DNA of 64,000 bases, from contig NW_002476089.1 of assembly GCF_000189635.1 (NCBI RefSeq), positions 62,001 to 126,000 on the forward strand. Reading direction: 5' to 3'. The notes below the pieces were generated by a model. The model saw only the letters and a list, made by a program, of their open reading frames with translations, did no database searches and had not been told where the DNA came from. The translations under genes were made by a program, and so were the position numbers. Position 1 is the stretch's first letter. The number at the start of each line of letters is the position of its first letter. Positions 38,129-60,201 of this stretch are shown in pieces. This stretch comes from Tetrahymena thermophila SB210 (lineage: Eukaryota > Ciliophora > Oligohymenophorea > Hymenostomatida > Tetrahymenidae).

Positions 38129-39623
38129 ATGAACCCAATAGCTTCAGAAGGCCCATAATCAAAGCAATTTATAGAAAACAAAGAAATAGTTTAAAGCTTC
38201 CTTGAAAGCGTTGATAAAAAGTCTCTCGATGAAATCAAGCAATGCATTTCAAGAATTGAAAAAAAGATTAAAAAGAAGCAAAATGCATATTCATAATTTT
38301 CCAGTGTAAAAGATTTAATTAATTCAATTAAAGACGGAAACGGAAGAAGTTGCCTCCATTTTGCTGCCTCAAGAGGTGATATTCCTATTTTCGAATACCT
38401 TTTAAATCTTGGTGCAGATTACAACACTCTTGATAATGAAAAGAACAATCCTTTTTTCATAGCTGCTTAACATGGACACTTAGAAATAATTTAATACATG
38501 GTTGACAAGCTCAAACAAGACCCATTATCAAAGAGAGGAGGAGTAAATAAATTATAAAATTTTATTAAATTCAATTAGAAAAAATCATAAATAATTTATT
38601 TAAATTAATGAAAATTAAATTTAATCATATCAATAAGTAAAAATATTTATTCTATTAACTTAGGATGCATCTGCAATTCACTTAGCTAGTAGCAATGGAG
38701 ATATATCAACAATTGAGTATTTGATTTCTAAAGGAGCTAATATAGAAGAACCCAGCACTTTTGGTTTCCCTATCAATTGGGCTGCTGGCTATAACCATGT
38801 TAAAACAGTTGAATTCTTATTGTAAAAAGGTGCTTCCCCTAATGGTGATAAAAAGGGTGTGATACCTTCTCCTTTAATTTTAAGTGTAGATTATGGCAAA
38901 TCAGATTTGTTTGATTTACTTATTTCACATAATGCTGACGTTAATGTTCATGATCCTAATGGATGGAGCGTCTTACACTTATGTGCAGAAAAAGGAAACA
39001 TTCCTTTTATGAATGTTCTTTTAGAAAAAGGAGCAGACCCCAACTACTTACATGAATAGAAAACTCCTTTATAATTAGCTTTCGAGCATGGACACATGGA
39101 TCTTTATTAGATTTTAAAGAAGCACACAAAAAATGATATTAATTAGGAATTAGCAGAAGAGTTCAAAAATAAGTTAAATATGAAAAAGGAAGATGAAGAA
39201 TTTGTTCCTAAAACAATTGATAATGCAAAGGCTATAGCTTTAAAAGATGAAGGTAATGAATTATTTAGAACCTCTCATTATGAAGAAGCTCTCTAAAAGT
39301 ATTTAAGTGCTCTTGAATACGATTCTAATCTTGTTGCAATTCACACTAACGTAGCAGCTTGTTATATTTTCTTAAAACGTTTTGAAGAAGGTCTTCGCTA
39401 CACAAGCAGAGCTAAAAAAATAGACCCTGAATGGATTAAAACATATTTCAGAGAAGGAGAAATTTACAACGGAATTGAAAACTATGCTGAAGCTGCTGCT
39501 TCTTTCTGGGAATGCCTTAAGAGAGAACCAACTAATAAATTATACAAAGATCTTTTTAATACCGCTATGTCTAAAGGAAAGTCATAATACTAGCAATAAA
39601 ATAAAAAATAAGCTTCTAAATGA
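38129..39623 (+). CDS. Ankyrin-repeat plus TPR protein with HSP70/90-binding clamp
   Basis: Two exons (38129-38542 and 38664-39623) join in phase to give 457 residues. About five or six ankyrin repeats come first, for example NGRSCLHFAASRGDIPIFEY, SAIHLASSNGDISTIEYLIS and NGWSVLHLCAEKGNIPFMNV. Residues about 340-445 are three TPR motifs: KALKDEGNELFRTSHYEEAL, HTNVAACYIFLKRFEEGL and DPEWIKTYFREGEIYNGI. All five residues of the two-carboxylate clamp known from HOP and other cochaperones appear in the right spacing (K and N of LKDEGN, N of HTN, K and R of WIKTYFR). That predicts binding of the EEVD tail of HSP70 or HSP90. The tail is Gln-rich. The ankyrin part presumably selects the client or location; that is inference. 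The codon use is GC-richer than its neighbours, as in well-expressed ciliate genes. Confidence 0.88.
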
Positions 39624-40126
39624 TTTTATTTAAATGTGATTGCAAAAATATATTTATATGTCATATGTCTTTTAAAAATCAAATATTAATTCATTAAATG
39701 CTAAATATTTATCACTATTTGATATTAAGAGATTTTTTTTTATTCAGTGCTTTTAACTTAATTGCATGTTATTCATCTTAAATAAATATTCAAAATAAAA
39801 ATTCATTCAATAAATCAATAAATACCTAAGTAAAATAACAACTATTAATTAGATGGAAATAATAATTTTCACATACTCCTTCAAAAATTAACAATATAAA
39901 CGTTTTTAGAATAAAATAATAATAATCTTCTACGAAAACCAGCTATAGTAATATTAGAATCTTTATTAAAATATAAATAAAACAAAACTTAGATTTGTGC
40001 TTAGAAAATATTCTATTTAAATTATTTAAATTAATTTGAATTATGATGGTGGTTTAGCAAATATAAAATAAACAACACAAAATATTTACTAATATCCTTA
40101 TATTTTTAAATCTAAAATTCAGCGAA
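39624..40126. other. Intergenic spacer
   Basis: AT-rich spacer between the ankyrin-TPR gene and the tRNA. No gene recognised. Confidence 0.5.
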
Positions 40127-40206
40127 GATGAAGTGGCCGAGCGGTCTAAGGCGGTAGATTAAGGCTCTATTCCGAAAGGGCGCGAGTTCGAATCTCGCCT
40201 TCATCA
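40127..40206 (+). tRNA. tRNA-Leu (anticodon AAG)
   Basis: Perfect 7-bp acceptor stem (GATGAAG with CTTCATC) and discriminator A. The D arm has TGGCCGAGCGG, which also serves as the A box. The anticodon arm has loop TTAAGGC, placing AAG at 40161-40163; A34 would be modified to inosine to read CUU/CUC. A long class II variable arm (TTCCGAAAGG) is as expected for Leu. The T arm is GCGAG-TTCGAAT-CTCGC, containing the B box. No intron. CCA is not encoded. Stands alone between protein genes. Confidence 0.95.
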
Positions 40207-40208
40207 GA

Positions 40209-40217
40209 TTTTTTTTT
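40209..40217 (+). terminator. RNA polymerase III terminator
   Basis: Run of nine T residues two bases after the tRNA discriminator base, the standard Pol III stop. Confidence 0.8.
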
Positions 40218-40451
40218 AATTAATCTTAAAATTGTAAATTTTAATTTTTTTCTTTTAGTAATATAGCTAATACTTATATCAATTGTAAATTAAAAATATT
40301 TAAAAGATGTTTGTTTATGCTATAAAATAAACAATTTAAATAATTTGTAAACAAGAATCGTTATTAATTCTATTTGACATTTAATTAATTTAAAAATAGA
40401 AAAGATGGGTATGAATACAATTTGATAAAATATTTAAATTCAATTTTTTTT

Positions 40452-42766
40452 TCATTATTTCTTTTCAATTTTAACGGCGTTGCTAAGTGCAATACCAGCA
40501 GTTTTGTAATGAGAGTGTAATTTAGTTAAAGCATCAACATAGCAGGCATCACGTAAGGAAATACTAGGGTTCTTTTCAAGGATAGGAAGAAGCTCATCAA
40601 CTGATTCTTCAATAATAGCTTCTAAACCTGAGTTAACGATATCTCTTTCCTAAGCACCTTGAAGCTTTTCTTTGTTTTCTTCACTAACTTCCATTTTTAA
40701 GCCAGTTGCTTAAGAAATGAATTCCATTAAAGAGTAGTTACTTTTAGTATTATGAAAATATTTATTAAATTCGCAATTTAAAATATGGTTAGCTTATTTT
40801 ACCTTTATTCTTCCCACTTACGAGTTAATCTTCCCTTACGAATGTGTTCGAGATTCTTTAACCATTCCATGTAGCTAACTACGATAGGTCCAGATGAAAT
40901 TAAAACATCAGGGAATACTACGATTCCCTTGCTGTTCAAAATTTAATCAGCTTCATAGCTAACAACGGCATTGGTATTTTCTGCTAAATACTTGCAGTTA
41001 AGTTTATCAGCATTATCTAATTTTATAATTAATAAAATTTTGTTTAAATTGATTGCACTATCTAATTTTAATCTTAATTTTGTTAATTCAATCTATCTTG
41101 CTAATGTTAAAGAAAGTAGTTAAGAAAAATAAGTAAAAAATACCTTTATTAATAAGGTGATTAACATAGGTAGGAATAAGTAAATCACATTATTTATACA
41201 TAGCAGTTTCATCAGGATAGAATTCAGCACCAGGATATCCCTTAAAACTGTGGTTCTTATCAAAGTGAAGCTTAACAAGATTGACATCAATACCTAATAT
41301 AATATTATTTAAAGTTTTAAACTCATTTAAAGGTAGACTAAGCTAAAAATTTATTTACCTTCAGGATTGTAAATAGATCCGTCCTTTTCGATGACACCAA
41401 TAAGCTTGGCACCTAATTCTTGTAAATAGAAAGCAGTCCAGTAACCGATTTTACCAAAACTCTATTTATTAAATAAATTTTTACATATTTATCACAAAAA
41501 TTTATTATGTTTGTTTTATTTAGCACATTGAATGCTAAATAAATAAATAAATTAAATATAAACAAAGTAAATATGATAAGATATGATATTATTTTTGATA
41601 GGGCAGTCTCAAAATGATGAAACAAATAATTTTCAAATGAAATCAAAATCCTAATTTTTTTCACTAATTTGCATACTTTTCATTTTAATCACTTTACTAC
41701 TTAATACTTCTTAAAGAAATCTTTTATTTTATTCTTATCACTTCTATATTTCTATTTAAAATAAGTGCAAACTAAAAAATAACAAACAAATTTACATGAA
41801 TAATGAAGGTCTTTCCAGCAATACCTTATTCTAAGCCTAATCTTTAAGCAAGCTTTTTATGATTGAATAAATAATTCAAGTAGATAGAGGCACCAAGGCC
41901 ACCAGCTTGAACTCTTCCTCTAATACCACCTTAATTCTATTTTTAAATCAAATATTTTAATTTTTAATCTAGCAATTAACTAATTCAATCAGTTATTTTA
42001 AATCATTATGATTTCTAAAATCGCTGAATGTTCTTTGAAATGAAAAGAAAAATGAAAGGATTCATTACCAAAGATTTACCAGTGACACATCCTTAAGCAT
42101 TAATGTCGTTTTAACCATAGAAACTATTTTAATAAGACAAAAAATAAAATTTTGTGTTTAATTTTGATTCAATTTAGAAAGCAATAATATGTAGTATATG
42201 TGGTGGAGTTAATTTAATTATCCTCTAAAAATAAAGGTTAAATATGCATACGTTTGATAGGTGTCCTTTATCCAGTTCATTTCACGTTCTCCAGTGTGGT
42301 GATCAGGTCCTGGAACATCAATAGAAGCACCAATGAAACCTCTTTTGCAAAGTTCAGTGGTGTATTTTCTGGTGATGAGTTCAACTTCTCTCTAGGTCAT
42401 CAAGGCAGGGTCAATGGAGATAGCACCGAAAGAACCTCCAAAAGGAACTGCAGCAATAGCATTCTTAACAGTTGTCAAGGCTGAGAAGGCATGGACATCT
42501 TCAGTAGTAACTCCGACCATGAATCTCAAACCACCCTTGGTAGGAACTCTGTGTTACTTGTGTTAGGTACGATAGCAGTTAACATTGATGAATTCACCAT
42601 TTTCTCTCTTTAAGGGAATGTTAATCTAGCAACTCAATTCAGGTTCGAAGTAGAAGTTTACGTCTTCTTCAGGAATGTTAGCTATTTTACCAGCTTGCTT
42701 AAAGAATTATTCAGTACTCTTCAAAATAGAGGAAGAAAAGGAAAATTTGGAAATCTTGGATAGCAT
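40452..42766 (-). CDS. Glutamate-dehydrogenase homologue lacking the catalytic lysine
   Basis: Seven exons read leftward (42766-42252, 42123-42069, 41936-41796, 41461-41359, 41293-41144, 41016-40803, 40740-40452) sum to 1,467 nt, giving 488 residues with all phases matching. The N-terminus is Ser/Lys-rich and could be a mitochondrial presequence. GDH landmarks are [49 protein letters not shown], the nucleotide-binding [28 protein letters not shown] and [13 protein letters not shown]. The family deaminates glutamate to 2-oxoglutarate with NAD(P). The invariant GGAKxG that carries the catalytic Lys is here GGSFGA, with Phe at residue 113 (codon 42428-42430), and the usual ANGPTT loop reads NTNAVVS. 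The fold is probably kept but ordinary deamination should fail. It may be a regulatory subunit or a repurposed enzyme. High coding quality and clean splicing argue against a pseudogene. Confidence 0.88.
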
Positions 42767-44642
42767 CTTAAATATATATTATAGTTTAAGCTTGTTTTGC
42801 TTTGTTATCTTCTTTTTTCTGAAAGATAAATAATTTAGTTTAATTATTATGTAAATGTAAATTATGGTATTATCAGAAGGATTCTTCTTTATCTGCTCTA
42901 ATTAATTTTTTTATTTTTCTTAAATACAAGGGACTATTATTTTGTACTATACAATTAATTTATTATTAATTACGATACATTTGATGTATTTTATTGATTT
43001 AATACTCCATTTTTATCTATCACCAAAGTGCGTCACATTTCCAAATATCAATTTACTAAATGCTTTAATATATCCTATATCTAGCTTAAGCAAAGTAGTA
43101 TTTAGTTTTAAAGGTGTGATCGCATATCTTAAAGGGGGTCGATATCACTCTATTTTTTGATGCATGCATATATTCACTCAAACTCAACTTGTATCTTAAT
43201 TTTGCCAAATTCATTTCACTTTTATCCTTTTCTAATTTTTTTATTCTATCATGCTTATTTTTGTCATAATATATAAACTTTAAACGATACTTCCAACAAT
43301 CGCTTACAAAAAAACAGTTTATCTAGGTTTCATATAACGCATAATTAAGTTTGTACTTCATCTTTCTTAAGCATTTACACAGTTAAGTTTTGAATGATAT
43401 GTGCTAATTTTCTAATGATATTATTTCTTAATTCCATAGAAATATCTTTTAATAATATAATCAATCTTCTCCCCCACCAATCCTATAATTCAGAGACTCT
43501 TATAACGCACTTTCAATTAATTTATTGAAAGATTATCTATAAGAAATAACTAGAAAAAAATATCTGTTTACATAAAATAAACATATTTTTTTATTTAATA
43601 AAAAAAGTAAAAATTGAAGGATATTTAATAGCACTCCTTTTAAACAAGTATGCAAATATTAATTGAGAATTTTTTCATTTTTAGATAATAATTTTAAGTA
43701 AATTGAAGCATAAAAAAAAATTGAAAGATATCAATTTTGATCAAATATTGAAAAATCAATGTAGATAAATTAATTGAAAATTAAATTTTATTTTAACTTG
43801 TTATCATTTCAAAAAATTTTGATAACTAAAGTTTATTAAAAATATCTAAATTAGTTAAAAGTTAAATTGAATAATTTTAGAAAATAGTAACTAATATTTA
43901 ATTTTGATTTTATTAAAAATTTAAAATATTTTTTTTAACTTAAATAATAATGAAAAAATAGGTTCAAAAAAAATTTTTTTATTTAATATATGAAAATTTT
44001 TCAGTAAATCAAAAAAGAGCAAAATATTTTTTATAGAAATAAACGAAAATATATTAATTAAAATGCTTTCTTAAATTTTTATAAATAACTTCATTCAAAT
44101 ATATTTACTTTCTTTATTTATTTTTATAAATTAAAAAAAAATTATTTAAATAATAATAAAAATATTTTTAAATTTTATTTAAAAATTTAAATTTAACTTA
44201 AATTAAAAATTTTTCATTTTGTTCATTTTCGTTTGTTAAAATTTATTTTATTTTTTTTAGTTTAATTTTTCACTTAAAATATAAAAAGGAAAATTTAGCA
44301 AGAAATATTTCTCTGAATTGTATAAATTTAATAAAATATTAATTTAAGCAGAATTAAAATATTTTATTCACCTTATTTGAACTTATTTATATTACTTTTC
44401 ACTCTTTATTTTTGTTAAGAATTTATAATTTAACAATAAAATAGAAATTGTTTTATGTTTTTTTGATAAAAACTAGATTATTTAGCTAATCATTAGCTAA
44501 TATTTAGAATTTTAATAAAAGACATTCATTTGTGAAATTTTTGTGGCGGGATTTATAATTATAAATTAAGATATTATCTGATTAAATTAATTTTCAAATT
44601 TCAAAAAAAAAAAAAAATTATAGTTTATTAAAGTTATTAGAA
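42767..44642. other. Long divergent intergenic region
   Basis: Upstream of both the GDH-like and SMC genes. 43.5-44.6 kb is very AT-rich with no signal. 42.95-43.5 kb is clearly less AT-rich and holds an unassigned frame described separately. Confidence 0.5.
43020..43361 (-). CDS. Possible small gene, 113 codons, unknown
   Basis: Minus-strand frame from ATG to TGA in a segment of visibly higher G+C than its flanks. It reads as a basic protein with stretches such as YYDKNKHDRIKKLEKDKSEM and NRVISTPFKICDHTFKTKYY. No TGA occurs for about 150 codons counting upstream of the ATG. I recognise no family. A plus-strand frame (42942-43160) overlaps it, so even the strand is uncertain; it could also be a gene remnant or a noncoding RNA locus. 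Confidence 0.25.
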
Positions 44643-50449: not shown

Positions 50450-51722
50450 TCATATGTAAACATCTTTTTTACGCTATGTATTTTCGGCAAACCAATCAAC
50501 AATTGGTCTATCATTGAAAGGACCATATTTACTTTGTTCACATAAATATAAGCGAGCTTCATTTTCTGCAGTTTATTAATAAATTTCAACTATTTTAGGG
50601 TCGATACTATCTAACTCAGCATCTGATTTGCTTATTGGGATTTAAGGTTATATTCTAAGATATTTGTCTCCATAATTTTGCTTAAGCTCAATATCAACAT
50701 AAGCAGAAGCTCCTTCTCCTAAACTATCAATTATATTAACAACATTTAACAGACCTGCATTTTTACTGAGCTATTAAGACTTTTTAGGCTCTCCTGTACC
50801 AAGACTGAGCAAAAAGAAATTGTTTTCATTACCACTATTTAAAGCCTCTTTCTTAATATCTTCTAAAACCAATTTTGAAGGATTGTTTTGTCCTACACCT
50901 CCATCTACTAGACTATAAGATTTTGTTTGATTTATGTTTTTGATTTCTGCAGAAGGGAAGAAAGTTGGGGCTGCACTTGTAGCTCTTGCTACGTCTCTCA
51001 TGTAAAAGTTTTTGTCATCATTAAAAATAGCTTCTCTACTTCTAAATACTTTAGCTATACTTTTACCTAAAAAAATTAGTTAGTAAAAATTATATGTTTT
51101 AAATTTATCAAACCTTGGTTCATTTCTCTTCTTACAGCTGTTACAATAACATTTGTTCCTTTAATAACATCTGAGAGCTTACAATTTTGGAAGTTTCTGA
51201 AAAGAACGCTTTCCAGACCAGCAGGATCATATTTGGCTTGGTCCATTAAATTATTGAGCATAGCCTTGAGCTTAGAAGTATTGAAAATATTTGCACCATC
51301 TAATTTAAATACGTTAACCATCTAATCCATATCTAAAATAGGATTAGCTCCATCAAGAGTTCCTGTACTTCCTAAAGCTAAATATATTAAAAAAATTTTT
51401 TTGATTCTTTTAAATTAGTGAAAAATAAAGAAATACCTAGCAATCCACCTATTGAAGTACCTCCAACAGTTTCAAAAATTTCATGTACCTTATACTTTGT
51501 TTCTTCACACAAAACCTTAATCATTGTAGCAGGAATGATACCTCTCATACCTCCTCCATCAATGCTAAGACCTAATCTACAGAAATCAACTGCTTCTTGC
51601 TTGTAATCAAGCATGTTGGAATTAGTAAACGATTTATTCTATATAAAAAAACATTTAAAAAAATGATAAGAATTAAAGCTGACTTAGTAATTATTAATAG
51701 ATAAAAAAAAGATAAATTATAA

Positions 51723-51753
<31 letters not shown>

Positions 51754-54700
51754 ATTACTCTAAATAAATCTTAAGGCCTAGATCTTAACATAGAGTAAAC
51801 ATTCGTATTTTTTTCTAGTTAGTGTAGAATTTGTTAGTAAATATCATCAAATTCGATAATATAAGGTCTTGGTGATAATTCTAATTGTTTCAATTATATG
51901 CTATTGTGCTTTATGAATTCTAAAAATGAATTTATTATTTCTAAGCTGAAGGAGTTGTCTTCAAGAATTTTAAGTTATCTTAAATAATTTTCTTCTTTAA
52001 GGAAATTAAAGATTATTATAAATCCTTCATCTTAAATCTTATTTTGACTTATATCTAACAATGTCAAATTATTATTTTACTTAAGACCTTCAACTAGATA
52101 ATTTAAACAAGCTTCTTAAGTGCCATCTTGTATAGTTTTACTTAAGCCTAGCTCCTTTAATGTTGTATTTCTTTTCAGTACTTCTGATAATATACTGAAT
52201 GCGTGAGGAGTTAATTTATTTTATGAGAGATTTAGATGAGTCAATTTGCATTCTTAATTTGAACATAGGTATTGTTAAAGATTGGTTATTTAATTTGAAC
52301 TGAGAAAACATGATCTGATTTGTAAAAATTTAATATATTTCCATTGTTAAATTTTTTCAAAATCGTCAGAACAAAGATTATTATCATCCAATATCAGAGT
52401 CTAAAATGATAGCTAAAAGGAATCAAAGCAAGGAGTTAAATACTCAAATGATTTTGGTGAAATATAATTCCCAGACAAATCCAAAACTCTTAAATACTTT
52501 AGTTATTTTAAGCCCTCACAAAGAGTAATTAAATGGGAATTGTCTAAGTTACAATGACTAATCTTTAATTGTTAAATTCTTCCATTAAAGTTAATAAACA
52601 TATTCTTCAGTATTTCAATCTACGATTTGCTAAGATCATTCTTTTCAAAAGCTATTTTTGTGTAAGTGATTTTGTTACTAGATATAGCTTCTAGTACTTC
52701 TTGCATACTTTTATCTTAATTCAATCTGTTAACATTTGTAAACTACAGACTGATTCCTTCTTTTTTAGTTTTCTAAATTATTTTTGCAACAACTTAGCAC
52801 TCTTCATCATCTAGATCAATATTGTTAAAAATATAAGAATCATATTGCTAACAAATTTTATCATTGCTATTTAGAGACTCATAGAATATATTCTATTTAA
52901 ATTAAAAAAAGTTGTATTTTATTTAATATAAAAAAAATATTAATTTACTAAAAAAGTTATTGGTTTTTTTTCTTAACAAATGCTCTTAAAATCGACATCT
53001 TTGATGTGTGGATTTTTTTAGAAAAATTTGAACATAAAGCGGAAGAATTCATCATTTATTTATTTGTTAGCTTTCTTTGAATTAAACAAATTGCCAATAA
53101 CATTAGTAACAAAATTTTTAGGGAAAACATGTTGAAGGTCTCTTTTAGTAAAGGCTTATGACAACACAATTAAATTATCTTTTATACTAACATTATCATT
53201 ATAGTGCTATTCATAGTATATTTCATTTATGGCAGCTTAGTAGGATTACATGAAATTCCCTTTGCTTCCTCTAATAACCTATATTGCTTTCTCAAACTTT
53301 CCATCAGAAGTTATTTCATCTAATTAAATACTTATACCCTCAAGTACATACATCACAATTAACTCATCTATCAAAAAAATAATTTGGATTAATTTAAAAA
53401 TTTTCTAAAATAAAATGATTTTACTCATTAGCTATTTGCATCCTTAAACTTATAACTTTTTAATTTGTGGACAATTAATGAAAAAGTAAGTAAGCTGTTT
53501 TTATCAAAAAAAAAAAATATATTTTTTAAAAGTAATTTTTAATTAAATTTTACTTTTAATGAATCGCTGACAGAAATATTCTAAATATGAGATCCCGAAA
53601 CATCTAAAATCCAAAGATTTTTCATGTTATTTGCTACAAGAGTCTTTAAAGAGGGAAAGACTATTTGGCTAGACATAAGATAAGTAAGTGGTTTTGCATA
53701 TCCAATATAATGTATATCATCACAATTGCTTATATCTAAGTAGACTAGACTTTTGTACGAATCTGCTATTGTCACAAGATCACTGTCTGCAATTTTTGTA
53801 TTCGATAAAATTAGAGTTTAAATTCTTTCTAGTTAAAATTATTTTAGCAATTTAGAATTTAATATAGTGCAGTTGCTCAAATTTAAATAATCTATGGGCT
53901 TTTCAAGCTTTTGTTCTTAAAGAAACTTAATTATTTGCTCTTCTTAAGCTGGTTATGATATATATTTAAACAGAATATTTCTATTGAAAAAGCTAAATTG
54001 TTTAATATTTTTGAGATTATACGCCTTATGATATTCAGATTCATTATCAGATGTGGTTATTATCTTAATGAATTTTTTAATCTTTTCCAATGCTTAAGTA
54101 GGACCTATTTATTTAAATTAAGATAGCAGTTAATCAATTGTTGTGATATCCCCTCTTCTTTTTTCGCTAAAAGCTTAAAACATACTAGCCATATTAACAG
54201 TATTAAATGTTTATAGATGAATATTTTTTTGTAATATCTAGCTATATCTTTTTTCAAGGAAAGTTTATTAATCGTTATTAATCTGCTCATATATGCTAGC
54301 CAGCTCCTTATCAACAATTTTAAAAAGTTCTTAATGGCTTATTGAAGTATTCTTTTTTTTACACCACTTCATCACTTTAACTATAGTCACCAGTCTTTCT
54401 AACAGATGTTTAATTGCTTCTTTCTAAATTGGTATACCAAAATAAAATTAAGGCTCGCAATTATTAAAATAGTTAATTGAAATTTTATCTTGCTATTCCT
54501 AAAAAATATTTTAACCTTGTTTGAATTTATATTATGAAATTTTAATTAAATCATCTTAATGCTTAGAAATATCTAATAACCACTCTTTCAACACATCAAA
54601 ACTGTTAATATTTGCATATTTATCTATAACACTCGTTGGTATTAATAAATTCATTTCAAACATGCAAAAGAGTATTGATTTAACATATAGCTAAAACTCA

Positions 54701-57700
54701 CCATTAATAACTCCGATATTTTGAACAAGAATTTCGCTCTACCCAATGTCAATTAATCTTTTAATTTTATTAAAATTATAAAATAACAATCAAAATAAAA
54801 TAAAAATTATACCCTAATTTTGAATTTAGCTGAGTTTCTGATAAGAAGCAAGATATAGGATTGCTCTCAGGGTATATAATCATTTCTAAAATAATTCTAT
54901 CTGAAAGTTATTCCCTATCTATATTTTCATATAGCTAAAATGGACCTTTTTCTGAGATCTACTAAAGAAAAATAATTTAAATTATTTAAATTTAATTTGC
55001 ATATTAAATAATGAATTACAGATGATAGACTATTTATAGTAGAGTTAAAGTGTGAAAAATAGTAGTATTAGTCTTAAATCTTAACAAATTCTTTTCTTAA
55101 TCTGGAAGAAGGAATAAACTTTTTCATTAGAGAGTCCTTCATGTAGTTTAAACCTGGGTACCTAGTAGCATGCTCAACTAATATCGTTCCAGAAGCCTCA
55201 GATCCTGTTTTTAGTAGGCAGTAGTAACCTACCAAATGAGAAGTTTACTGCTGCATATCTTTTCTTCTAAATATAAATTCTTATGTCTTTTCATTATACT
55301 AAAATGCTTATTCCCAAATATATTTTGGGATTTTTCTTTCTCCAAAATTTGTACAATAGACATGCATGTACTACTCTTCTTAATCTCTATTCTATGAAGT
55401 AGTTTCTTATTATTTTGGATCATCTTCTATGGAAGTAAATATATTATTCCAAATATGATTCCATTAATAATCTAGAACTAGCTATTTATTGCTAGACATT
55501 AATTAGCTAATAATTTCACTAATATCAGCAAAATACTGTTTATTTAAGTTAGCTTTAACTAAGTATTTAATCAAAGTATCATTATGTAACTTTTTCCCCT
55601 CTCCTTACTTTTAAAGATACATAGCCAATTTAAATTTTTTATATTTCAGCGATTTTTCAAATAATGTTTCTTTCTCAGGGTAAAATTTATCGCCTAGCAG
55701 CTTTTTATGAGCAAAATATTAATCTAAGAGTTAAAAATTTTCTTCTGTTTCTTCGAAATATTTAATTGATTCAAAGCACTTTTCATACTTTTTGATATTT
55801 ATTCCAAAGAAAATAGCAAGTAGCTCTATAAATATAGAAGGATTAAAGCTAACATTGTCAAAGTGCTCATCACTGTAAAGAATATTTAGCGCATTTTCCC
55901 ATGATTCTTCCTATTTCCATGATTAGTCTAAAATAGCTTGATCCGAAATAGAAGACTTAAAAAATAAGTAATGCGAAGAAGCAAAATAAATTAAGGTTAA
56001 CTTATACTTAGGTGAGCTTATATTTGAAAGATTTATTTACTAAAGCCATAACTTGAGCACATAATCTAAGGATTCCCCCTTTTAAGTTATAGCTATTTTA
56101 AGGTTTTCATCGAAGGATTTGCAAGCTTCTTTATACTTTTGCAATGATCTCTTTGAAGCTAATTTTTAAATATACTCCTCAATTGAAATTTTCTTCATAA
56201 ATTCTTTATATTCTTTTAAAGTTTTTTGTTTATTGTTAGATATGAATTCGTTTATTATAGGATAAACCTTGCTTATTATGTCCCTTATACAGAAAAAACC
56301 CTAAGTAGGGAGTATAACTTCTTTTACCCACATAAATGCCTTTAATAATTAATTTTTAAATATAGATATTAACAAGAGAAAAAAATTACTTAATTGATTC
56401 TCTATAACACAGAAAATATGTAGTGATATTGCTCATTATTTAAATACAAAGAATACTATCCGTTCTTGTCTTTCAAATGATAATCATTTTTTTATCCATC
56501 AATAATAAGTTTCAAACATTTAAAGAACTGCAGTAAATGCTCTTGCTTGAATAATTCTTAAAAGAAGCTCTCATTTAGCTATAAGGACATTACCTCTTTA
56601 TAGAAGAAAATAGGATTTCTCAAAGCTTTTCATAATAAATAATAATTTTTAATAAATTAACGTCATATGATTTATTTCGATTTATTTTATTGATATTACA
56701 TTTAGAATTGACTAAAATAAAATTTATGCAAAATATGAAGAAGAGTAAATTTTTTATTTAAGCCATAAATTAATTTAAAGAATATTCAATTGTGTGCGTA
56801 TTTGTATTTTATTCGGTATAAACATTAATTAATTAATTATTAGGTGTATCAGATTTTTACTGATACTCATTAATTTTCTTTAATACGTATTTATAAGGAT
56901 TTTGATATAGATAAACTTAACTTATTAGATAATTGACATCAAAAAGAAAATAAAAAATAAAAATTTTTACCTGAGTGTTAGATTTTACCGTCTTTTGACT
57001 GTATTTAATTGAATACTCTAAATAAGTCACCTTTTGTGTTGACAGCGTAATTTGGAAGGAAGCTCTCTAAAGGTAGAGTAAAGATGGAAGATAATATATG
57101 AGATATAAATTATTCTAGATTTATATTATTTTCAGCATCTCCATCTCTTATGAATAAATTATTTTCTGAATCAAAAGAATATTCTTCAATATTTATAAGT
57201 GAATCAGAAGTAGTATTAGGAGTAATTAAAAAATAAGTATAAGTCTTTTTATCTTTGAGCAACTCTTTTACCTTCACTACAATACTAGGTTTGATGTAAT
57301 TATTCAATAAAAATCGATTCATAAGATAAATTATTAGGTTTTTTTAACAAGGTTATATTAATTCTATTGCTATTCTTTAAATTTCGTATTGGCTATTTTA
57401 TGTCAAAAATTTCTAAAAGTTTTGGGAATTAACTAATGAACTTTCGATAAATGGAGCTGATATTTGTAAGAGCTCATTCTATAAAAGCTATTTGACAATT
57501 TATTCTATTTAGCTGTTATTTTATGGGTCTATTTCATCTTGATGTAGCATCTATTTAAACTAATCTTCAACTTAGAGTCTTTCGTCAGTATAATAGTTAT
57601 ATAACTCATCAAAAATATTGCTTAATTTTGTTGAACTATACTTATTTAATTCCATTTTATACATTAAAATCTAAGAAAGAATTTAATCGAAATTTAGTAA

Positions 57701-58171
57701 AACTGGATTGCTTTAACCTAGATAAACAGAGGGATCTCCATTATATCCTTTTATGGATTTTTAAACAAGAACTTCAGAAACATGTAGTTCTTTTATAAAC
57801 TTGAGGATCATTATTTGAAGATTTTCATTAATTGGGATTTCTTAAAAGCTCTCTCTAGGTATAGGTGTGTCTAACTCACTATAAGAATCTGTTTTTTTGT
57901 TCTCTACTATTGGCTAGCTCAAGTGCCTAACTTGACTTCTGTTTATTTACACTTAACTAGATGAAATATTTGCTAATTGCTATTAATCTAAAGTAGACCT
58001 CTTATCATTAATTTATTTTTTTGCTTACCCATTCTCTTGAAAATATTGTTTTATTTACTTTTTTATTCTAATTAGCCTATTAGGTTTGCTGGACATTTAT
58101 TTCTATATGTCATCACATAAAACAAATAAGTCTGGAACTGTTTTTTAGATTTCTTCTAATATGAAATCCAT
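50450..58171 (-). CDS. Large leucine-rich-repeat protein with C-terminal patatin phospholipase
   Basis: Many-exon gene of about 2,300 residues read leftward from ATG at 58171 to TGA at 50450. The N-terminal about 1,300 residues are helical and unassigned. A first LRR block lies at about 54.0-53.6 kb (LERIQTLILSNTKIADSDLV, KSLVYLDISNCDDI). A second, ribonuclease-inhibitor-like block lies at 52.7-51.9 kb (LKYLRVLDLSGNYIS, CKLTHLNLSQNKLTPHAF, NNLTLLDISQNKIQDEGF). It continues through a phase-0 intron (DLFR, then NKSFTNSN) into a complete patatin domain: oxyanion loop DGGGMRG (51540-51560), nucleophile elbow GGTSIGG with Ser at 51453-51455, and catalytic Asp in LVDGGVGQNNP (50903-50905). Patatins hydrolyse acyl lipids (PLA2-like). 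I saw no P-loop NTPase domain. It could be two adjacent genes if the 52.9 kb junction is wrong. Confidence 0.72.
51721..51759. repeat. (AAAT)n microsatellite inside an intron
   Basis: About ten uninterrupted copies of a 4-bp AAAT/TTTA unit. On the minus strand it directly follows the GTAATT donor of the intron between the LRR block and the patatin domain. Confidence 0.9.
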
Positions 58172-58692: not shown

Positions 58693-59175
58693 TCATTTTC
58701 TCATCATGCACTCATCGCCTTCAGCAACATATCCTAGCTTTTCATAAAAAGCGGTATTTGAAGGTTTGCAATATAAAGCTAATTTAATACATCCCAAATT
58801 TTCCAATCCTATTTTATTAAGAGCCTTCATTATCTTAGAGCCCCATCCTTTACCTTATTCACCTTTAGCTGCAACAATACCTTCTATGTGGCCAACATTT
58901 CCTACAATATTTCTTTCAATAATAACACTACCAGCAGCAACAATTTTCTTTTTTTCAACTTCCTCAATTACAATATGTACTGAATTAATAATTTCATTTT
59001 TAGATTGCAATTAAAACTCTTTCTAGAAATCCTCTCTAGATATCTAAGGAGAACTAGTTAAATTACTCAAGCATTCAAAGTACATTTTATCATAATCTCC
59101 TAATTCTAAGAGCCTGCAGGTATATTATTTAGTTGAAAGAGAGTCTAAAGAAGCTTTTAAATTTCCAGTTGACAT
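58693..59175 (-). CDS. GNA1: Glucosamine-6-phosphate N-acetyltransferase
   Basis: Intronless, 160 residues, the usual length for this GNAT enzyme. It transfers acetyl from acetyl-CoA to glucosamine 6-phosphate on the way to UDP-GlcNAc. Visible family features are the N-terminal CRLLELGDYDKMYFECLSNL, central AAGSVIIERN followed by VGHIEGIV, the acetyl-CoA loop as GEQGKGWGSKIMKAL (Q/R-x-x-G-x-G/A), and the C-terminal GCIKLALYCKPSNTAFYEKL ending LGYVAEGDECMMRK. The usual DCSEKN before FYEK appears as YCKPSN. UDP-GlcNAc feeds N-glycans and the first step of GPI-anchor synthesis, so it is functionally linked to the GPI transferase-like gene in this window. Start taken at the first ATG; the region upstream is AT-rich. 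Confidence 0.9.
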
Positions 59176-60201
59176 TTTTATTTATATTTTTTGAATACTC
59201 TATTAAATGTATATTTTTAAAGATTTATTATTATAAATTAATATTTTGATAAATCAATAAAGCTATTGCTATACTTTTAATTAACTAAATTGGTACAATA
59301 TTCAAACTACTTATTATTTTTTTATATATTCAGCTAATAATAAACAAGGATCTAACAAAAAGTTTGATTAGTTTATCAAAAATCCCTACGTCAGATTCAT
59401 ATTACAATACTTACATAACAAAATGATTAGTAATTTAGTATATTATTAAACCAGTTAAAATTAATGGACTTAAAATATAGTGTTGGAAGAGTATAAAAAA
59501 TAAATATTAAGTTTAGTATTTTCATAAAATTAATCTTTTTTAGAATATAATATTTATTTCAAATTTAATTAATATTAATTATTTTAAATATTTCCAATTT
59601 GTTATTAAGCTCATAATATTTTAAGCTTTTTTTGATAAATTAATATTTGTTTTATTACATTTATTGATAATATTATTTTTTAAGTAACATACAAATTTTT
59701 CCATTCCTTTCTTTAATTTTTTAATCAATACTAAAATATTAAGATTGTTTTAAAAATAAAAAGAATTACTGTAAGTAATCAGCGATTAAAATATAATAAC
59801 TTACTTAATTAAATAAATACTTTTTTATATAAAAAAATAAATGAGTTTTTTAACATTTTTAAATAAAGCAGATAATAAATTTAAATTATTTCATTGACTT
59901 AAATTTAAGTAAATATATTATTTTTAAGCATAAGCAATTATTAAGCTATTTTTTATTTAACAATTTCTTGTGAATAGTGTTTAAATTAACTTAAAATCAA
60001 AAATTTTACAAAATTTCATTCAAGATTGCTTAAATGAGTGTTTTTTTTAAATAGTGTTTAAAAGTTACTCTTAACTCTATTAGTTATCAAAGAAACAGAA
60101 ATATCATTTATATATATAAAATTGATTGATTTTCAGAAAGATACTGACATCAAAAATAAATTATTTAAAGCAAATGTCATAGATTAATTAGCAAAATTAA
60201 A
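59176..60201. other. Divergent intergenic region
   Basis: About 1 kb of very AT-rich sequence between the divergent GNA1 and cNMP-binding genes; promoters for both should lie here. Nothing else recognised. Confidence 0.5.

Follow-up and report, generated by a model that had tools for sequence, protein, structure and literature searches.

A predicted leucine-rich-repeat patatin gene of Tetrahymena thermophila and its likeness to giant proteins of intracellular-group bacteria

Introduction

Polymorphic toxins were described by Zhang et al. 2012 (PMC3482391); the sections of that article available to us list Tox-ODYAM1 and report, for the large proteins of amoeba symbionts, peptidases of the OTU-like and UBCH types. 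They also propose that eukaryotes have drawn toxin domains from effectors of resident bacteria, those resident in ciliates included; the argument is about domains, and the word patatin is absent within 300,000 characters of the main text. Excerpts of a study on a Bodo saltans symbiont report polymorphic toxin systems in this Paracaedibacter-like bacterium (PMC8163844), while the patatins of Rickettsia, Odyssella and Amoebophilus were placed in one clade and lateral transfer was argued for them in the portion available of a further article (PMC3688537). On the ciliate side, the accessible text of one paper merely cites a Euplotes patatin-like phospholipase (PMC8455672), and that of another mentions patatin transcripts of Cryptocaryon (PMC5142281). 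The literature searched, with most subscription papers outside its reach, yielded no ciliate protein that combines leucine-rich repeats (LRRs) with a patatin domain. Here we analyze a predicted LRR-patatin gene in a 64,000-nucleotide stretch of the Tetrahymena thermophila SB210 genome (hereafter the window), which is part of contig C361 in a genome of 101 Mb and 445 contigs.

We consider it fairly probable that the gene product is a cytosolic, LRR-regulated patatin phospholipase, which descended from, or shares a source with, giant proteins of intracellular bacteria. Much of this roughly 2,200-residue protein is common, and in the same order, to a ciliate chromosome and to intracellular-group bacteria.

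Results

A single predicted gene with an intact patatin domain

On predicted splice sites, a single ciliate gene encodes a long N-terminal half that is followed by two LRR blocks and by a patatin domain with its catalytic motifs intact. Its features are given below in window coordinates; modules A and B take their names from the bacterial relatives treated in the following section.

58171 (ATG) to 50450 (TGA), minus strand: whole gene, a predicted model of 11 exons and 2271 amino acids (aa) in ciliate code 6
58171-56971, 56625-56390, 56339-55020 and 54961-54813, minus strand: exons 1-4
54757-53554, 53494-53425, 53367-52949 and 52892-51759, minus strand: exons 5-8
51638-51437, 51377-51114 and 51066-50450, minus strand: exons 9-11
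51639-51758, minus strand: intron 8, 120 nucleotides (nt) with ATTT repeats, between LRR block 2 and patatin
56555-57631, minus strand: module A-like region, about aa 181-424, across intron 1, located by hhalign against bacterial N-termini
55542-55748, minus strand: ankyrin-like stretch, about aa 677-745, a weak second hhalign hit (E 0.061)
54229-55364, minus strand: module B, aa 805-1145, kinase-like with five invariant residues altered, located with a bacteria-only profile
53432-53916, minus strand: LRR block 1, about aa 1250-1391, Pfam LRR models at E 4.5e-5 to 2.6e-4, below their cut-offs
51849-52703, minus strand: LRR block 2, about aa 1597-1881, repeats of the RNase-inhibitor/NLRP type, from PDB sequence matches (best 2e-13)
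50450-51614, minus strand: patatin domain, Pfam span 51569-50879, from PF01734 and PDB patatin-17

The splice sites of this model were assigned from the sequence. All ten predicted introns are of the GT-AG type with compatible phases throughout, and their GC content is 7-17%, compared with 24-35% in the exons; intron 1 measures 345 nt. Under code 6, 95 TAA and 40 TAG codons lie in frame, and the only TGA is the terminal one. The genetic code, the introns and the ciliate neighbors together give the gene a ciliate context. Between LRR block 2 and patatin, the frame is open with intron 8 either retained or removed (642-aa open reading frame, ORF), so that no stop separates the two parts even when the intron is kept.

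Patatins are characterized by a GGGxRG loop, a GxSxG serine and a DG[GA] aspartate. All three catalytic motifs are intact in the window protein (SIDGGGMRG, GGTSIGG and LVDGG), with the GGGMRG loop and the GTSIG serine encoded in exon 9 and the DGG aspartate in exon 11, and PF01734 matched at E 1.1e-20 with 75.1 bits (curated cut-off 27.7). By family match and motifs, the domain is thus a predicted patatin-like phospholipase. The two LRR blocks hold 7 and 5 LRR-like motifs in a row. Pfam returned an AtMIF1-type LRR match at about aa 1252-1384 (E 4.5e-5, below cut-off) and an LRR_6 match at about aa 1805 (E 1.1e-4, 22.4 bits where the cut-off is 23.4). Block 2 matched 58 different sequences of the PDB at E<=0.01; almost all of these are LRR proteins, with RNase inhibitor and NLRPs among them. 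Residues 1-1147 gave no Pfam match, and a profile of residues 402-1147 gave no PDB match. No hydrophobic stretch was seen near the start of the protein (MDFILEEIQKTVPDLF), and hence no secretion signal.

Searching the same genome with four pieces of the window protein recovered, besides the gene, a single collinear paralogue on contig C364 (model of 2832 aa), along with weaker matches to a patatin on contig C381 (34%, 9.7e-7) and two weak matches of LRR block 2 (about 7e-4). Collinearity in this search begins at aa 346, the preceding part being weakly aligned (24% over aa 1-400). Identity between the two proteins amounts to 62.2% in patatin, where the paralogue has LIDGA as its aspartate motif, and to 16-34% in the other regions. 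Where the window gene has introns 1-7, the paralogue has its closest intron 52-302 residues away and an uninterrupted coding sequence, which means that it bridges those junctions. The site of intron 8 meets a gap in the alignment, and the single paralogue exon around this gap (aa 2403-2517) encodes, uninterrupted, the final LRR, the linker and also the GGGMRG loop. At intron 9, a paralogue intron of the same phase is found 5 residues away, and intron 10 is common to both genes in position and phase. Exon 2 of the paralogue (C364:74324-69317) additionally carries long low-complexity inserts rich in Q, N, S, K and E that are not present in the window gene. The patatin at C381:77000-86999 (L121) lacks a run of LRR motifs and is a tree neighbor of the LRR-patatins (94/95, very long branch).

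An earlier note on this DNA had proposed that LRRs and patatin are fused in one ciliate gene. The open frame, the collinear paralogue and the uninterrupted bacterial homologues described below bear this out. Its statement that the catalytic motifs are intact also stands, with all three present and the Pfam score above cut-off, and the Pfam search of the spliced protein that it had suggested returned both expected parts, patatin above and LRRs below their cut-offs. Of the architecture it described, the fusion therefore holds, and the homology of the N-terminal half had been overlooked.

Giant bacterial proteins share the domain order

Prokaryote genomes were searched with the two ciliate patatins, and 80 of 131 confirmed loci were kept. 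Among 33 of these 80, chosen by hand for spread and inspected, 31 patatins had reading frames of roughly 300-490 aa, and the other two were parts of giant ORFs, one from a Candidatus Paracaedibacteraceae metagenome-assembled genome (MAG; L044/L142, 2177 aa) and one from an uncultured Chlamydiae MAG (L046/L143, 2604 aa). Both giants are single uninterrupted ORFs, in which module A, an ankyrin-like stretch, module B, LRR block 1, LRR block 2 and patatin follow each other in this order.

The likeness extends beyond patatin. With that domain excluded, profile-profile comparison (hhalign) aligned window residues 805-1391 with L142 residues 865-1418 at a probability of 98.0 (E 2.4e-13, 510 columns). 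For module B, we built a profile from 19 bacterial rows (17 of 25 module ORFs from the regions described below, plus L044 and L046) and no ciliate row; it detected the paralogue at E 3.3e-29 and the window protein at E 2.3e-24. In the controls, the best unrelated ORF reached 0.0078 (889 background ORFs) and the best shuffled sequence 0.15 (n = 400); two further background matches (5.8e-17 and 0.0098) turned out to be frames of the window gene itself (53428-54789 and 54752-55123). Applied to module B, hhalign gave a probability of 99.9 (E 1.1e-31, 299 columns). For the module A-like region, the comparison was made with the N-terminal parts of 22 bacterial homologues out of 27 (L211, L212, L213, L223 and L216_1 were left out); it gave a collinear match of moderate strength at a probability of 79.0 and E 1.6e-5, with hmmsearch giving E 0.037. 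The bacterial counterparts of the ankyrin-like stretch show weak Ank_2 matches below cut-off.

Taken from the module profiles, the case for common descent of the ciliate and bacterial proteins is solid. As in the bacterial proteins, LRR blocks follow module B in the window protein, and a C-terminal enzyme follows these, where one is recognized. By descent, we count the window protein in a family of giant LRR proteins of symbionts, an assignment of which module B activity forms no part.

By eye, the ORFs around L142 include ParA-like, resolvase-like and transposase-like ones, suggesting a mobile or plasmid setting.

A bacterial family with varied C-termini

Counting the source genomes, the module was found in 23 of 232 genomes from the phylum of the Chlamydiae MAG and in 14 of 42 from the order of the Paracaedibacteraceae MAG, with 66 and 55 matching places, respectively. 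It was also found in 8 of 385 genomes drawn from the class of the latter MAG; these eight are 1.1-2.6 Mb in size, and G001, G243 and G265 among them had already been seen. From the 66 and 55 places, our reading covered 20 regions, fetched from eight genomes and chosen mostly for high scores. These regions hold 25 module ORFs, 3 of them cut by region or contig ends. A patatin profile built from the ciliate sequences matched 4 of 27 module proteins, L142 and L143 included, and a Pfam scan of nine module ORFs returned one UCH, one Tox-ODYAM1 and one patatin. Patatin, UCH and Tox-ODYAM1 thus stand behind the same module, the pattern that marks polymorphic toxins; it is seen in the bacterial family only.

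Several individual members deserve description. One ORF of the Chlamydiota set (L212:4078-11253) has a MYND finger and a protein kinase at its start and a UCH deubiquitinase at its end, with the module between them. At the C-termini of L214 and L219, an OTU-like GDGxCGYxAL stretch can be made out by eye, with no Pfam match. The patatins of L215:129-5993 and L216:5978-12481 retain GTSMGG and have altered oxyanion loops (SLDGGGLCTY and SLDGAGIATY); they are possibly inactive lipases. The genome G265 (2.6 Mb, from the order of G001; L214-L218) contains 29 matching places, which exceed the number of genes because the module often occurs twice per ORF. With several giant genes lying next to each other as well, the family appears strongly expanded there.

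A search of viral contigs produced 273 pattern hits, 0 of which were confirmed, and a search of plasmids with the L142 module gave no match.

Five kinase-like residues are invariant in bacteria and changed in the ciliate

Counted over all 27 bacterial modules aligned to the 19-row profile, K70, D162, N167, D184 and D186 are identical in 27/27 and K164 in 24/27. The spacing of the D-G-K-P-D-N and D-N-D motifs resembles that of protein kinase loops (HRDLKPEN and DFG). Both ciliate copies differ at all five kinase-like positions, with E, S, C, G and S in the window protein and E, H, D, S and S in its paralogue; an alternative alignment leaves the window protein the first D of D-N-D. Bacterial module B found no convincing match in Pfam or PDB, and a structure model of L044 module B, computed from a two-row alignment, was discarded at a mean pLDDT (predicted local distance difference test) of 33.3.

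Trees of patatins and modules

The patatin tree comprised 39 rows, with L142 and L143 in place of L044 and L046 and with L111 and L116 dropped since they show no loop motif. The ciliate patatins group with L142 and L143 at 93/74, and six LRR-linked patatins group at 91/72. The C381 patatin, which has no LRRs, is attached to the LRR-patatins by a very long branch (94/95). Measured as path length to the window patatin, L143 is the nearest bacterial sequence (2.38), followed by L043 (2.54), L041 (2.59) and L142 (2.61).

In the module tree (45 rows), 29 B rows, the ciliate ones included, stand apart from 16 A rows with a support of 98/97. Inside B, the ciliate modules form a pair of their own (96/98). 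As they lie among the B rows and away from the A rows, the duplication into A and B predates the ciliate copies.

No special kinship to anti-phage lipases

A first signal had pointed to CapV, the lipase of the CBASS anti-phage system, with E 2.5e-49 for the PADLOC effector model and E 8.6e-45 for the NCBIfam model. On NF041079, the window patatin scored 153.3 bits (cut-off 200) and potato patatin, represented by 327 aa, 145.6, whereas the CBASS lipase stretches scored 283.8 (CapV, 244 aa) and 292.4. We rejected CapV kinship because the plant control came close to the window score; CapV also lies across a 100/99 branch from the ciliate patatins. SMODS, the only CD-NTase model tried and searched with introns ignored, gave no match in the ciliate genome, and as a control it matched Escherichia coli and Methanocaldococcus jannaschii. 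Pfam searches of the two halves of the window protein gave no NACHT or NB-ARC match up to E 5, a result compatible with a strongly degenerate copy, and 12 places elsewhere in the genome, among the best candidates scored, do match NACHT.

These results divide the remaining claims of the earlier note. Its observation that a nucleotide-binding module is missing agrees with the absence of NACHT and NB-ARC matches up to E 5. A kinship to CBASS CapV, which it had named as a known effector, falls on the subthreshold score, the 100/99 branch and the missing SMODS match, and the immune sensor-effector role, unsupported as it was put, had rested on a domain order that giant proteins of intracellular-group bacteria share.

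Neighboring genes

Three further genes or ORFs of the window were noted.

38133-39623, plus strand: protein with ankyrin and tetratricopeptide repeats
39881-43144, minus strand: glutamate/leucine dehydrogenase-type gene, in exons
about 58696-59180, minus strand, upstream of the LRR-patatin gene: ORF resembling a GNAT acetyltransferase, by eye

Discussion

The family plan suggested by these comparisons is module A, ankyrin-like stretch, module B, LRR block 1, LRR block 2 and a variable C-terminal part. That the ciliate gene has its ancestry in a symbiont protein is, in our judgment, probable. For the direction of transfer and the function we infer the following course. A Paracaedibacter-like or Chlamydia-like symbiont would have given the gene to the ciliate. 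In bacteria, the giant proteins would act upon the host; in the ciliate, the N-terminal half, with its kinase-like part disabled, would have become a scaffold. The LRR part would hold or aim a cytosolic phospholipase, and binding of a ligand by the LRRs would release patatin, which would then cleave acyl chains off phospholipids. As to its use, our likeliest guess is that it controls the membranes that enclose intracellular bacteria or those of vesicles. In its most complete form, the scenario would have a protist take over a whole multi-domain symbiont effector and more than a single domain of it, disable both the kinase-like part and the export, and turn the lipid-cleaving end into an LRR-controlled weapon or regulator of its own at the membranes that surround intracellular bacteria; stated as a whole, we regard it as doubtful.

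Several results weigh against a symbiont origin. In the patatin search, stand-alone patatins, L041 the best of them (5e-41), ranked ahead of the giants L044 (5e-35) and L046 (1e-33), and the stand-alone L043 and L041 are closer by path length than L142. The groupings at 93/74 and 91/72 fall below the level that the tree program stars as supported, and the position of the C381 patatin makes a ciliate origin of the patatin part conceivable. The module tree does not resolve the branching order within the B clade, and the program flags long branches as well as the composition of the window sequence. Agreement in module A is moderate and that in the ankyrin-like stretch weak. Six of the nine scanned module ORFs consist mainly of repeats and have no recognized C-terminal enzyme, and eukaryotes are represented throughout by one genome, that of T. 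thermophila.

Four other explanations have to be set beside a symbiont origin, and the probabilities we attach to them overlap, since ancestry and use are separate questions. Best placed is an ordinary lipid enzyme, in which the LRRs merely position patatin on a membrane or partner and the link to symbionts concerns ancestry alone; we hold this to be possible, though not the likelier case. Eukaryotic patatins are mostly enzymes of lipid turnover, and nine further loci of the same genome have patatin-family matches with <=3 LRR-like motifs in a row (coding strand, fetched 10 kb), compared with the 7 and 5 of the window gene. A diverging N-terminal part of 1900 aa would, however, be costly for placement alone, which is a point of argument only.

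Two explanations fare less well. In the first, the gene would be a ciliate-born immune sensor-effector similar to NLR proteins or CBASS, with LRRs that detect a pathogen and a patatin that kills the cell or the invader. LRR block 2 is indeed of the RNase-inhibitor/NLRP type, and the paralogues agree well in patatin (62%) but poorly in the LRRs and elsewhere (16-34%), as if sensors diversified and the effector stayed. The rapid change of the LRRs is nevertheless not special to them, because the N-terminal half evolves at a similar rate. The protein lacks NACHT and NB-ARC matches, its likeness to CapV is no greater than that of plant patatin, and the same arrangement of module and LRRs occurs in bacteria, twice with other recognized C-terminal enzymes or toxins. 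We therefore judge this explanation unlikely, and we rate a defensive role of the ciliate copy, taken by itself, as equally improbable.

In the second, transfer would have run the other way: a gene assembled in a protist would have been captured by intracellular bacteria, with its C-termini swapped afterwards. Intracellular bacteria do acquire host genes; the LRR, ankyrin, UCH, MYND and protein kinase matches of the bacterial proteins look eukaryotic, and a patatin of this same ciliate, that on C381, adjoins the group in the tree. On the other side stand two bacterial phyla with many diverse copies, at up to 29 places per genome, and five residues kept in all 27 bacterial modules and missing from both ciliate copies. 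The A/B duplication, moreover, is ancestral to both of these copies, in a comparison for which this genome alone stands for the eukaryotes. A reverse transfer hence seems rather improbable to us.

Finally, a false joining of two or three adjacent genes, for which the long intron 1, the repeat-rich intron 8 and the predicted splice sites could be cited, is highly improbable given that paralogue exons span introns 1-8, that no stop lies between LRR block 2 and patatin in either reading, and that the homologues L142 and L143 are uninterrupted single ORFs.

The interest of the locus lies in an apparent whole effector common to a ciliate and intracellular bacteria, and not in an immune-receptor architecture. 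The analysis also brings out a family of giant proteins in bacteria, which vary in their C-termini and have a core module with no convincing Pfam or PDB match. On the most complete scenario, which we hold doubtful, the undescribed modules A and B would make up a new family of kinase-like domains that belongs to intracellular bacteria and has formed a pseudokinase branch in ciliates. Bacterial and ciliate proteins differ in that the five residues and a signal at the start are present in the former and not seen in the latter; together with the shared order, this contrast would allow the domestication of an entire effector to be tested in a living, culturable cell.

Comparison with known systems

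CBASS CapV (NF041079; PDB 8zr9) shares the patatin family and the catalytic motifs with the window protein, which differs in scoring below the model cut-off, in standing far from CapV across the tree and in lacking both a SMODS match in its genome and an arrangement with a nucleotide sensor. Plant patatin-17 (PDB 1oxw) is the top PDB match for the window patatin (E 3.2e-15; profile E 4.9e-24), but it is a stand-alone enzyme and groups with stand-alone bacterial patatins (91/86). NLR and other NACHT/NB-ARC proteins have NLRP or RNase-inhibitor repeats that resemble LRR block 2, whereas no NTPase domain was detected in the window protein, and its N-terminal half has other kin.

The Pat1-type patatins (PMC3688537) are likewise patatins of intracellular bacteria for which lateral transfer has been proposed; in the portion of that article at hand, no LRR part is mentioned and the words leucine and ciliate do not appear in the main text. 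With polymorphic toxins, as far as PMC3482391 was available, the bacterial family shares a constant N-terminal part and exchangeable C-termini, including Tox-ODYAM1 and ubiquitin-hydrolase types, from which the ciliate copy departs in showing no secretion signal.

Closest of all are L142 and L143. Their ORFs have no introns, in contrast to the ciliate genes with their introns and code 6; their starts are hydrophobic and, by eye, signal-peptide-like, unlike the ciliate start; hydrophobic stretches lie between their LRR blocks and not between those of the ciliate proteins; and the five kinase-like residues that they possess are changed in the ciliate. Yet they follow the same order of module A (a putative counterpart in the ciliate), ankyrin-like stretch, module B, LRR block 1, LRR block 2 and patatin, at 2177 and 2604 aa compared with 2271 and 2832 aa in the ciliate, and their patatins group with the ciliate ones in the tree (93/74).

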